Positions 53,976 to 59,994 of a stretch of DNA of 64,000 nucleotides are shown here, piece after piece. Below the pieces are notes generated by a model, which did no database searches, was not told the origin of the DNA, and saw only the letters and a program-made list of their open reading frames with translations. The DNA is from Mixophyes australis (lineage: Eukaryota; Chordata; Amphibia; Anura; Limnodynastidae). Position 1 is the first letter of the stretch. Each line of letters opens with the position of its first letter. The stretch lies in contig JAVHZZ010000011.1 in assembly GCA_036250195.1 (NCBI GenBank), positions 59,586,919-59,650,918 of the forward strand, written 5' to 3'. The translations under genes and the position numbers were made by a program.

Positions 53976-54432
53976 TGTGACAGAGTCACTGGAAGGAGCC
54001 TAGATACAGAGGTATGTGTCCCAGGCTTACAGCATTGTATACATAAGGCCCAGTCCGGGTCTTCTGTTCTATCAGTCTCTAACAGACTGATTAAGGGATG
54101 CACCTGTGAGGTGCTTGTGATAAGGCAGCTGGGATATGCAGCCAGTGTCTCAGACCTGGGAGAGGAGAGTGCCTCCCAAGACACTCTGTTGCAGGGAGCA
54201 ACAGTTACATGTGGTTTGGTGAATGTGTGGGACATAAGGTCCTACACATGAGAGAGAGCCTCTATAAATGTATTAGCTAGAAGCCAGATGGCTAGGATTT
54301 TATTTGTGTTTTGTTCCTATTTTCTAGCTGGTGAATAAACTGGCTTTGGCTGTTATTCAGAAACTTCTGGACTCGTGTGTCTTACTGCTGCTGTTCACCC
54401 AGGAGATAATACCTTTTCTCCTGATTATACTA
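53976..54432 (+). repeat. 5' LTR of the chimeric element
   Basis: It starts TGTGACAGAGTCACTGG and ends about CTGATTATACTA. A TATA-like TATAAATG occurs at about 54262, and AATAAA at about 54335 could be the polyadenylation signal. Confidence 0.88.
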
Positions 54433-55564
54433 CATATGGTGGAGAATGCGAGCAAAGATCTGCGCAGATCAAGAATAGCAGCAGTCTTGGAGATACTTAC
54501 AGAAGCCAGCTCTGTGTGTGTGTGCTTGGAAAGTTTAAAGGAACAGACACCATGGAAGTACATGCATGTCTTGTCATGTGGAAAAAAAAGCAGCTAAAAT
54601 ATTGGATTGTTTATGCACAGCAACGGTGGATCCAGAGAACCACGTGGATGTGAGTAATAAACTCTACTGTGAAATGCTGTATATACAGATTTGCTGCATA
54701 TATGATGAGTTGAGAAGAGTTAAAAGTTGTCTGTGAAAACTGCCCATTTGTGTTGAGAAAACAGAAGTGTATGCAAAGACCAGTGAGAGGCAAAGGAATC
54801 AAGTGTTTCATGGACTGTGTTTGTTAAATGCTCTATAGCAGAGTCAATACAAATTTGTTTATGAAGTCATTCTCCATGTGTACAGAGATGGATTAGTGCA
54901 ACTATTGCATTACAGTTGATGTGGTTTATCCCAATGTCTAAGGGGCTTCCACAAAAAAGCAGCAAGAAGTCTCAGAAAAATGAGCACATTATTGGCACAG
55001 AAAAAAAATGTTTTCTGCAATGTAAAGACTAAGTTGTGTTAATTGATGGAAAGCAGATGTGTTCATTAAGACTGAAGAGAAAAAACACCCCAAGTATTAG
55101 TGTGTCTGCAAAGCACAGGTTGGGTGTGGTTCTGTGCATAAACAAAGAGCAAGAGACTTTAAAGAGAAAAGTTTATTGAGAATCTTTGTCAGTGCAAAGT
55201 AGAGGTTTTCTGTGTTGAAACAACAGAAGTGTGCAAATGTGTTTTCAAAACCATTGAGCAGAAGTTAAAGGGAATAAAGGAAAAACTTTTACTCTGCAAA
55301 GGAAAAGTTTGTGATATATGCTGGGTGTTGTAGTTCCACAGCCCTTAAGTCAAGTGAGGTGCTCCTTCTGCAAAGAAAGTGCTTTGTTCGTGTAAAGTTA
55401 AATTGGCTACTCAAGCTACAGTGGGCAAGAAGAAGCAGAAGCCTAGTGTCTCAACCTAAAAAGACTGTGTGAAAATTTAAAGAGACAGGCACCCAATTTT
55501 ATGAAAGTACGCTATATGATACAGTCTTAGGAACCCTAACCCAGGACATCGCCAGCTTATTAGG
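54433..55564 (+). other. Long untranslated leader of the chimeric element
   Basis: About 1.1 kb lies between the LTR and the first long open frame. It is A-rich with many short AAAG/GAAG phrases, and has no significant open frame. It may hold packaging signals or further captured untranslated sequence. I recognise nothing specific. Confidence 0.4.
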
Positions 55565-56293
55565 ATGGCTACATTTTGCCCTTTTCCTGCAGCGGGAGCC
55601 AGCATGGAAGATATGTTCAAAGCGTTGGTACAAATTGCTGCAGCTCAGCAAGAAACTAATAAGATTCAGCAGGAAGCTAACAGGCTACAGAAGGTAGCCA
55701 ATGAAGGGACCAACAGACGTCTTCAAGTCCTTGAAGAGACCATTGCTCAACTAAGCCAAAAATTTGCAGAGTCAGAGCAGAATCACAAGAAGGCTAAGCT
55801 GGAGCAGGGCAAGTTACTGGTGGAGAAAAAGACCCTAAAGGAGGGTATGATGCTTCTCCAAACATCCTTCACTCCTTGCCAGGAGCATAGAAAAGATATG
55901 AAGGATATGCATTTAAGAATCATACAACTGGAGGAACAGTTGTCAGATGTGTCACCGAAAGGTGAAGAGGAGGCAAAAAGAGGAAGCTCTCTCCTCTCAG
56001 AAATTGCCAGTCTGAGGGAAAACCACATACCGCTGGCAATACACCTGCAAGCCTCTGCCGCATTGACCACAGAGTTGGAGAAAGCTAAAGGTGAGGTAGC
56101 CATGATCAGGAAACAACTGGAGCGTGAGACAAAAGACCTGACTAAGATACGGACAGAGCTGCAGAAAAAGGTTACTAAGCAAGCAGCCCTGCAAGCTCGG
56201 TGGGACAGGGAGATGGCACTAAAATCAGAGTTGCAGGACTTGAGAGAACAGATGTGTTCGGACTATGTGACGCGGAAGGAACATGAGGAGTAA
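55565..56293 (+). pseudogene. Gag-like N-terminus joined to a UACA/RAI14-like coiled coil
   Basis: This frame has 242 codons. Residues 1-65 (MEDMFKALVQIAAAQQETNK, then a Gln-rich helix) resemble the start of a Gypsy gag. From about residue 68 it becomes a long coiled coil with phrases typical of the vertebrate UACA/RAI14 ankyrin-repeat family: FTPCQEHRKDM (103-113), NHIPLAIHLQASAALTTELE (153-172) and SDYVTRKEHEE (232-242). These match the family's recurring [Y]VP...EHE pattern. A TAA ends the frame, but the sequence goes on as VSGLHKFKEQIKQE in phase, so the original frame was longer. The assignment is from memory and needs a search. No ankyrin repeats are present. Confidence 0.6.
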
Positions 56294-56448
56294 GTGTCAG
56301 GGCTGCATAAATTCAAAGAACAGATAAAACAAGAGCCTATAACGGCACATGACAATTATCAGAGTGACAAAGTGGAAGGTGAAATAACGCAACTTCAAGC
56401 TAAGAAACAGAAGCCTGAAGCAAATATGTTACTGTTGCAACAATCTTA

Positions 56449-57107
56449 GTCCAAATCTGGCAAAAAGAAAGAAACCAAAGCACCTGCTACAGGTCCAGGG
56501 AAGACAGGACCCCCCTCAGAGTGCAGCCAGTGAAAAGGATGCAGCCAAACCTGGCATGGCACCCAAAAAGCCACTTGCTGCCAAGGCTGGAGGGCCTGCC
56601 AAAAAGGCCAAAGTATCCGCCTCTGCTGGAGGAGCTGCAAAGGGCAAGAAGGCAGCAGAAGTCAAAGAGGTTATTGAACAGGAGCTCTGGCCTGAGGCCT
56701 GTGAAGAAAAAGCAGCAGCAGTTCTTCCTGCCTCTTGCATGCAGCAGCTGGACAGCAGCAGTTGTAAGGAAAGGTTGGCAAGCATGGAGGAATTCCAAAA
56801 GGCTGTTGAAACAAGGGAAAAGAAGTTTCTTAAAAAAGATGTGAAGAAAGAGCAAGCACCTGCCGACAAAAAAATAGAGCAGCGTGAAGTGCAAGATGCA
56901 GAGCTCAAGGCAGTAGAGACCCAAGAAGAAGATGGGAAAGTAGAGTTGCTGGACCATGCAATCTTGTTGCAAGTCGTCAAGAAGCAGCAAGGTGACAAGC
57001 CAAAATTGCATGTTCCGGGGGATCCCAGGAGTAAAGAAGACATTAAGGGAGAGGTAGCAGAAAAAGACCTAGTCCTTAAGAGAGAGCCTGCCCTAGATTT
57101 GCAGTAA
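56449..57107 (+). pseudogene. CKAP5: CKAP5 (XMAP215) segment inside the retrotransposon
   Basis: Residues 1-85 of the 56556-57107 frame match the linker and start of a TOG domain of the microtubule polymerase CKAP5/XMAP215, as I remember it: a Lys/Ala-rich linker (KKPLAAKAGGPAKKAK, AAKGKKAAEVKEVIE), then CEEKAAAVLPASCMQQLDSS and KERLASMEEFQKAVE. The upstream part in another frame (56449-56555, SKSGKKKETKAPATGPGKTG, then ASEKDAAKPG) looks like the same linker, cut by a TAG and a frameshift. No introns are present, so it was copied from RNA. Residues 86-183 (Lys/Glu-rich, KKEQAPADKKIEQREVQDAE) are not recognised and may come from a further source. Confidence 0.72.
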
Positions 57108-57211
57108 GAAGAACAGACAAAGAAGGAAGATAAAGTTGCCCTGCCTGCACCTGAGAAAAAGGCAGTCCATGAAAATACTGAATTAGAAAAAAAAAAGGTC
57201 CGGTTGATGCA

Positions 57212-58597: not shown

Positions 58598-58890
58598 AAT
58601 GTAAAAAGGGAAATGTTAGGGTAACATGCATACACGGGGATACACGGCATTCTGTTACCACGGAAGTAAACATAAAAACACAGTATGGTTTTGGGGTAGT
58701 CACTGTCGGTCTAGTTCCTGGTTTGAAATTTGACGCAATATTGGGGAGAGACTTTTCCCACTTCTGGAAGCTATGGGACACCCACTTGGTTGCAAAAATA
58801 AATAGACCAGCCCCACATGATATGACTGATACAGTGGTAGCAGGAGTGTTCTCCAAGTCAAATGTGTTCCCTTTGTCCACCTGCTGAGTA
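58598..58890 (+). pseudogene. Remainder of the protease, frameshifted
   Basis: In a shifted frame the sequence reads VTCIHGDTRHSVTTEVNI, then VTVGLVPGLKFDAILGRDFS, the second half of a retroviral-type aspartic protease with the ILGRD block. It ends at TGA (58885-58887). Confidence 0.65.
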
Positions 58891-58904
58891 AGTCAGGAAA
58901 TGAC

Positions 58905-59474
58905 ATGGGCAGCAGTAGAGGACAGGATTTTGAACCTCCTATTGAAGGGGGAAATATGGTTGAACCTGTTGATTGTGTACCCGGGATTAATGTAAGGAAA
59001 AATGTTTTTGCCTTAAAGCAGTTAAAAGATCCCACCCTGGCAAGGGCCAGAAAAAGTGTGAGAATTATTAATACAAAGCCAGTAGAACCTGCTAATAGAT
59101 TGCCGTACCCCCACATGACGATAACCCAGGGGTTATTGTGTCAGTCATTTAAACGAGGAAAAGACATTTTGGAGCGGTTGGTAGTTCCTAAACTATATAG
59201 AAAAGCAGTGTTGGACTGGGCTCATGGTTCCACAACTGCCAAGCATCAGGGGGTAGGAAAAACCCTAGATAAAGTTTTACAGAAGTTTTTCTGGCCAGGG
59301 GTTAGAAAAGATGTCTTTGATTGGTGGTCATCCTGCCCTGAGTGTGAATGCCATGTTTCCAGACCTCAGTCTAAAAAGTCCGTTGGCAACTACCCCAGTT
59401 TCCCCACTAACCAGTGTTCCTTTGGGTTGGAAAAGTTCTGTAACCAATACCCTTGCACTCAGTTTGCAGCATAA
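58905..59474 (+). pseudogene. Integrase N-terminal zinc-binding region
   Basis: This frame has 189 codons. After a linker (LKQLKDPTLARARKS) comes ERLVVPKLYRKAVLDWAHGS, then KHQGVGKTLDKVLQKFFWPGVRKDVFDWWSSCPECE. This gives the H-H-C-C zinc-binding set and the FWPG block of Gypsy-type integrases. It ends within about 25 residues and is followed by unrelated sequence, the purine tract and the 3' LTR. The catalytic core is absent. Because protease leads to integrase with no RT between, either RT was deleted or the parent had the Gmr1-type order (integrase before RT) and everything after the zinc finger was lost. Confidence 0.8.
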
Positions 59475-59537
59475 AGCTAAAACGTTGATGGGAAAAATTA
59501 GAAAAGCATTTAGGGTTGAAACAAAGGGGGGAGGATA

Positions 59538-59994
59538 TGTGACAGAGTCACTGGAAGGAGCCTAGATACAGAGGTATGTGTCCCAGGCTTACAGCATTAT
59601 ATACATAAGGCCCAGTCCGGGTCTTCTGTTCTATCAGTCTCTAACAGACTGATTAAGGGATGCACCTGTGAGGTGCTTGTGATAAGGCAGCTGGGATATG
59701 CAGCCAGTGTCTCAGACCTGGGAGTGGAGAGTGCCTCCCAAGACACTCTGTTGCAGGGAGCAACAGTTACATGTGGTTTGGTGAATGTGTGGGACATAAG
59801 GTCCTACACATGAGAGAGAGCCTCCATAAATGTATTAGCTAGAAGCCAGATGACTAGGATTTTATTTGTATCTTGTTCCTATTTTCGAGCTGGTCAATAA
59901 ACTGGATGTGGCTGTTATTCAGAAACTCCTGTACTCGTGTGTCTTACTGCTGCTGTTCACCCAGGAGATAATACCTGTTCCCCTGATTATACTA
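59538..59994 (+). repeat. 3' LTR of the chimeric element
   Basis: It is 457 bp, the same length as the 5' LTR, with about 14 substitutions. It is preceded by the purine tract at 59521-59537. Confidence 0.88.

Follow-up and report, generated by a model that had tools for sequence, protein, structure and literature searches.

An LTR (long terminal repeat) retrotransposon in the frog Mixophyes australis raises the question of how a mobile element comes to carry spliced pieces of several cellular genes. The element lies at 53976-59994 of the window, the whole stretch of 64,000 nucleotides that was analysed (C11:59586919-59650918 of an assembly of 3.126 Gb, which was also the genome searched). An initial annotation, made from the window alone, had proposed segments of three host genes between its LTRs. 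Comparison with the genome confirms four donors with exons in this assembly, UACA, CKAP5, SLC38A10 and PFDN5. Their segments are intron-less, are on the same strand, and lie in the region between the gag N-terminus and the CCHC knuckle. The element very probably descends from a Gmr1-like Ty3/gypsy retrotransposon with a SCAN domain, has become non-autonomous, and had its capsid exchanged for a mosaic of host mRNA by serial capture.

Twenty copies of the family were read: the window element and 19 others (L030-L048), picked from places in the genome searches. L049-L054 were read in addition, among places listed in protein-level genome searches. DNA matches between copies and window (high-scoring segment pairs) of less than 40 bases were left out.

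Host-derived segments

The CKAP5-derived segment (56455-56818, forward strand like all features below) consists of parts of four host exons, spliced together. Positions 56455-56586 match the first exon on C10 (93.9% over 132 bp), 56583-56688 the second consecutive exon (95.3% over 106 bp), and 56686-56802 the third (94.0% over 117 bp), after which the start of the fourth exon matches. The GT-AG introns between these exons are exactly absent from the element. We take the donor gene to be CKAP5, in agreement with the initial annotation, which had placed a segment of this gene at 56449-56810. A search of solved structures with the CKAP5 frame gave at most a weak match to CFAP210.

The CKAP5 segment is found in three of the 20 copies: the window element (C11), L030 (C5) and L040 (C12). 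The 17 others are continuous across the site: they lack the insert and keep an older sequence of some 10-30 bp, whose length varies with the placing of the joins. The right join falls within a shared GGAAAAGA and the left join in a similar stretch, giving short homology on both sides. The family's reading frame continues across both joins, and single-base differences disrupt it within the segment in the window element and L030. The piece is an internal mRNA fragment with element sequence on both sides; it does not have the layout of a processed pseudogene (mRNA 3' end, poly(A), flanking duplication).

The UACA-derived coiled coil (55733-56381) matches a long host exon at C4:83210084, with 90% DNA identity at 55733-56236 and 87% at 56223-56381. 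The C4 match is an open frame of 933 codons. At the protein level, of 6640 candidates for a 243-residue query from the copy L041 one reached E<=0.01, the protein annotated as UACA in Staurois parvus (E=4.4e-41; 64% over 171 aa). The initial annotation had left the choice between UACA and RAI14; protein and exon matches favour UACA, and RAI14 was dropped as a source. Relative to the host exon the element has a 138-bp gap, which lies between two near-identical 14-bp stretches, and the older copies L050 and L051 still contain this sequence. The solved-structure search with this frame returned nothing useful. Three UACA-like places lie near one another on the minus strand of C4 (5340617, 5367720 and 5399952), and are either old element copies or duplicates of UACA.

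SLC38A10 and PFDN5 are two further donors that the initial annotation had missed, while its statement that the donors are unrelated genes holds. The SLC38A10-derived segment (56826-57346) is a charged tail made of parts of three spliced host exons. It lies inside the TPR-like segment described below and has an internal deletion near 56980-56991. Residues 360-520 of L041 match Mixophyes fleayi SLC38A10 (85% over 161 aa, E=1.6e-69), followed by Pseudophryne (67%), among the best 120 of the 614 candidates (1211 in all) that reached E<=1. The full match spans L041 residues 333-552. The three host exons are on C6, about 1.6 and 0.6 kb apart, and their counterparts are contiguous in L041 and the window. 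Identities are 91.3% (92 bp), 96.8% (154 bp) and 90.1% (324 bp) for L041, and 91.3, 95.4 and 81.2% for the window. The C6 exons are identical to the M. fleayi protein (P0001) at all 190 matched residue positions (30, 51 and 109).

The PFDN5-derived segment (58014-58135) resembles a solved prefoldin subunit 5 in translation (E=1.4e-5). In the genome search 150 of 199 candidates were scored and all 150 matched, the best at a place on C2 (89% over 38 aa) and the rest weaker. The C2 place has exon edges, with TTGTAG before and GTAAGT after. The window matches this exon at 82% over 73 bp and the older copy L054 at 85% over 67 bp; both continue into the residues that precede the exon in PFDN5.

TPR is likely a fifth donor, as suggested by alignment to a human TPR sequence. 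The TPR-like segment is in two parts, 56385-56452 and 57347-57720. The human sequence aligns with the translation of 57422-57730 at 46% over 100 aa, with L041 at 53% over 80 aa and with L050 at 42% over 92 aa. The resemblance noted by the initial annotation at 57422-57715 stands, while its extent does not: about 56385-56452 belongs to the segment too, and SLC38A10 separates the two parts. No TPR family was matched in Pfam, the solved-structure search gave nothing useful, and a protein search with the frame at 57212-58597 had no matches at E<=0.01. The coiled stretch at 57721-58013, between the TPR-like and PFDN5 pieces, is not assigned to a source. Searches returned no donor for it, and its L050 counterpart found nothing among solved structures. 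BORCS7 was considered and is not claimed; it matched one old copy at E=0.0044 and was not seen in the L041 frame.

The segments are intron-less and in one orientation, as initially described: the CKAP5 and SLC38A10 introns are absent, and all pieces lie on the forward strand.

The replaced capsid and the retained domains

The host mosaic occupies the position of a SCAN-type capsid. This is seen by comparison with L052, a relative located through a genome place that matches only the gag N-terminus of the window element. L052 has a 569-residue frame with SCAN (PF02023, 1.2e-16), CCHC and protease, followed by the H2C2 finger and integrase core, then reverse transcriptase (RT), then RNase H, so that integrase precedes RT. 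Its 3' LTR is 92% like that of the window element, and 54966-55757, from the leader into gag, is continuous with L052. The homology spans the leader and gag as far as residue 88, starts again near residue 265, and stops at 59376 after the H2C2 finger. It is interrupted where the capsid region starts and ends, and the mosaic therefore fills the slot of the L052 capsid. No SCAN-type capsid was matched in the four window frames and two L041 frames scanned. The initial annotation described a gag region that was replaced or extended; replacement is the correct term, and the part replaced is the SCAN-type capsid domain.

The element's own domains lie on both sides of the mosaic. The gag N-terminus (55565-55732) is 61% identical to L052 gag over 72 aa. 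The gag 3' part with the CCHC knuckle and the start of the protease (58136-58597) and the rest of the protease region, in another frame in the window copy (58598-58904), are also homologous to L052. The pre-integrase stretch with its H2C2 zinc finger follows at 58905-59474 (PF17921, E=5.9e-16). In the window the CCHC and protease (RVP) matches are just under the Pfam cut-offs (19.2 vs 20.8 bits and 17.6 vs 20.7 bits), and the protease is above cut-off in L041. The assignment of knuckle, protease and integrase finger to the element itself was sound.

The integrase core and RT are absent, as had been reported. The DNA match to L052 ends at 59376 and the match to its 3' end starts at 59514, and the 137 bp between them are too short for either domain. 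In L052 RT and RNase H come after integrase, so one 3' truncation is enough to explain why the window element has no integrase core, RT or RNase H. The initial annotation had expected parent copies to show where RT was lost; the relative L052 points to a single truncation after the zinc finger. Excision of RT from between protease and integrase was dropped once the domain order of L052 was seen. Among the 20 copies read, of which some were scanned for domains, those extending to the 3' LTR have the same layout in that part as the window element, except for insertions.

Order of captures

The captures were serial and nested. In the older copy L050, UACA is followed directly by TPR-like sequence, and the PFDN5 piece is present without SLC38A10. 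In younger copies the TPR-like piece is interrupted by SLC38A10, and in the three carriers CKAP5 lies next to SLC38A10. Comparison of these copies indicates that the UACA, TPR-like and PFDN5 pieces, in whichever order, were present before SLC38A10, and that CKAP5 came last. A genome search with the TPR-like and PFDN5 frame listed 103 matches, down to 52% identity (92 scored of 2113 candidates), and many of those listed begin just past the SLC38A10 part. The earlier reading of a multi-gene capture, from unrelated, mRNA-derived genes in one orientation with shared joins, is retained, and this layered order is added to it.

The gag start of the window element may have a separate history. Positions 55468-55619, which are of the L052 type, have no match in any of the 14 informative copies without CKAP5. 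The place beside L030, at C5:129947801, has an L052-type start too. This would be explained if mosaic and SCAN-type element RNAs had recombined, which is not claimed as shown. Retention is possible as well, since an older UACA-bearing place (C5:76796767-76797702) has a gag-start match of 45%.

Boundaries and copies of the family

Two direct LTRs of 457 bp, as initially noted, flank the internal region, and they are 97% identical (Kimura two-parameter distance, K2P, 0.031). The 5' LTR (53976-54432) starts with TGTGAC and is flanked by an AT repeat, and the 3' LTR is at 59538-59994. The leader (54433-55564) has a putative primer-binding site directly after the LTR, and a polypurine tract region (59514-59537) precedes the 3' LTR, both identified by eye. 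LTR pairs could be measured in six of the 20 copies, and the K2P of the other five, each with two nearly full LTRs, is 0.025-0.068. Of 1623 first-look candidates in the LTR search of the genome, the 40 that were scored all matched, with identities of 92-100%. The window element is one member of a multi-copy family in this genome. The recurrence of its joins in other copies, which the initial annotation proposed to look for, was found for CKAP5 in the three carriers and for SLC38A10 in other copies.

Possible target-site duplications of 4 bp were seen by eye at the flanks of L032 and L047, and the window element lies inside an AT repeat. AT repeats host four of the seven insertions with flanks seen (the window element, L031, L034 and L052; the others are L032, L035 and L047), and are perhaps a target preference. 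In L030 an insertion of 5.6 kb separates the matches to positions 58460 and 58456 of the window. It contains long open frames, one of them RT-like by eye, and is read as a separate element nested there. Matches at C205:125964-128595 score identically to those at C3:225374982-225377613, and the former is probably a duplicate haplotype contig of the latter. At 53677-53849, ahead of the 5' LTR, a 33-34 bp unit is repeated in five degenerate copies. Downstream of the element, an open frame at 60505-60738 has no Pfam match; it may resemble a Penelope-type reverse transcriptase.

Origin of the mosaic

The host pieces were probably captured one after another, when copying switched template between element RNA and spliced host mRNAs packaged with it. 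Sense-strand fragments of UACA, PFDN5 and, likely, TPR would have taken the place of the SCAN capsid domain. SLC38A10 would later have entered the TPR-like piece, and CKAP5 would then have entered at that join. One 3' truncation would have removed the integrase core, RT and RNase H, while the LTRs, leader, gag N-terminus, knuckle and protease were kept. Copying would be in trans, by relatives of the SCAN type whose LTRs are similar; these are suggested as partners by the similarity of LTR and leader to L052 only. The mosaic would have to stay in frame so that the downstream knuckle and protease are translated, and its residues would be less important.

The reading frame of the ancestral mosaic was open. 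In L041 a frame of 639 codons runs from the gag N-terminus across UACA and SLC38A10 and ends within the TPR-like part; a second frame, of 504 codons, begins there and covers PFDN5, knuckle and protease up to the pre-integrase stretch. The break between them is within the TPR-like part, where 11 other copies carry 37 bp more. Across the 20 copies, stops occur in 54 codon columns of the two frames; 50 of these are private to one copy and none is found in three or more copies, which argues for an open ancestral frame.

Several findings weigh against this explanation. Private indels number 41 and 38 in the two frames, and only 13 and 12 of them are multiples of three. The ratio of changes at third codon positions to those at first and second positions (p3/p12) is 0.63-1.14 among copies over nine segments (host pieces and gag N-terminus), with no third-position excess. 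Against L050 the ratio for host pieces is scattered (0.46-1.67, PFDN5 highest). The codon-position rates thus do not clearly point to selection on the residues that come from host genes. L052, on which the capsid comparison depends, is itself decayed and was chosen among several gag-start matches for its long frame. For comparison, p3/p12 among copies is 1.59 for the knuckle and protease (NC+PR) and 0.89 for the pre-integrase stretch; it is 0.96-1.09 for host pieces against L051 and L054, and 1.71 for the protease against L052. The UACA piece gives 1.36 and 1.72 against its own host exon, where the constraint on the host gene also counts. Copies covering 60% or less of a segment were dropped from the rates among copies, and those covering less than 50% from the rates against older copies. 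As host pieces have no third-position excess, these rates do not demonstrate a protein-level function, and frame-keeping may be needed only because the knuckle and protease are translated downstream.

Neutral hitch-hiking is a possible but rather doubtful alternative. The protein would be irrelevant, the RNA would be packaged and copied in trans, and the host pieces would be passengers. Codon-position rates near 1 among copies are as expected, and of the copies covered, 15 of 19 have stops in the first frame and 13 of 18 in the second. However, the 639- and 504-codon frames of L041, the lack of any stop in three or more copies, and the p3/p12 of NC+PR argue otherwise.

It is unlikely that the mosaic is a working capsid substitute, whose coiled-coil or oligomerising fragments were kept for Gag-like assembly or for joining helper particles. 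UACA, TPR and prefoldin are coiled-coil proteins, the slot replaced relative to L052 is that of the capsid, the ancestral frame has no shared stops, and CKAP5 was captured in frame at both ends. On the other hand, the SLC38A10 and CKAP5 pieces are charged linkers, no purifying signal on host residues is seen among copies and the signal against older copies is mixed, and the frame is explicable by translation of the downstream knuckle and protease. A broader form of this idea, in which a Ty3/gypsy lineage rebuilds its Gag by exchanging the SCAN capsid for oligomerising host fragments and adding new in-frame captures, so that a host-made assembly module is evolving, is speculative and improbable.

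It is very unlikely that all segments are ordinary gag of one retrotransposon family that only resembles coiled-coil proteins. Coiled coils do yield weak, spurious family matches, but DNA identities of 81-97% to UACA, CKAP5, SLC38A10 and PFDN5 exons, and the unrelated SCAN capsid of L052 in the same slot, contradict it for the four donors; it may apply to the TPR-like piece and 57721-58013. Separate later insertions of LINE-type processed pseudogenes into one copy would account for the absence of introns, but can be dismissed given the identical joins at loci on different chromosomes and the internal CKAP5 fragment joined in frame to the element at both ends. The initial annotation had named as contrary outcomes a single gag family without host similarity and joins confined to one copy; instead, host exons are matched and joins are common to several copies.

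Comparison with known systems

The plant elements LARD and TR-GAG are non-autonomous LTR elements without RT that are presumably moved in trans. The frog element is likewise an LTR element without RT; unlike them, its frame consists mostly of host exons.

In the Gmr1-like clade, integrase comes before RT. The SCAN domain has been linked to Gmr1-like Ty3/gypsy elements (PMC4131045, PMC4592553). Like this clade, L052 has SCAN, CCHC, protease, and integrase before RT, and its LTR and leader resemble those of the window element. The window element differs in that SCAN, integrase core, RT and RNase H are absent. It is a derivative of this clade that lacks the SCAN feature, and not a typical member.

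Crocodilian endogenous retroviruses (ERVs) have captured KIT-ligand or nectin3 mRNA (PMC4299795). They are reported to have long open reading frames under purifying selection; env was replaced in the nectin3 case and no domain was lost in the KIT-ligand case. The frog family is similar in being a vertebrate LTR element that carries host mRNA. However, the ERVs have one gene per element, whereas in the frog family the capsid slot holds internal pieces of several genes. In the PMC literature searched, mostly as titles and abstract openings, no vertebrate LTR element with segments of at least three host genes was met.

The capture order, the joins, frame-keeping and the fate of the lost capsid can be read from the genome sequence in this family. 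Two questions thereby become testable: by what route LTR elements of animals acquire cellular mRNAs, and whether a Gag with cellular coiled coils in place of its capsid can still work. LTR elements are usually seen to have captured host genes in single events, while the frog family preserves successive states. The closest parallel is the maize LTR retroelement Bs1, which has segments of three host genes (PMC13317346). Like Bs1, the frog family takes up host mRNA; it has intron-less segments of more than one host gene in a single element, and joins found in several copies. Unlike Bs1, the frog family has a vertebrate host, and four exon-confirmed donors and one likely donor that are nested, can be ordered in time and occupy the capsid slot, and its older and younger states are both preserved.

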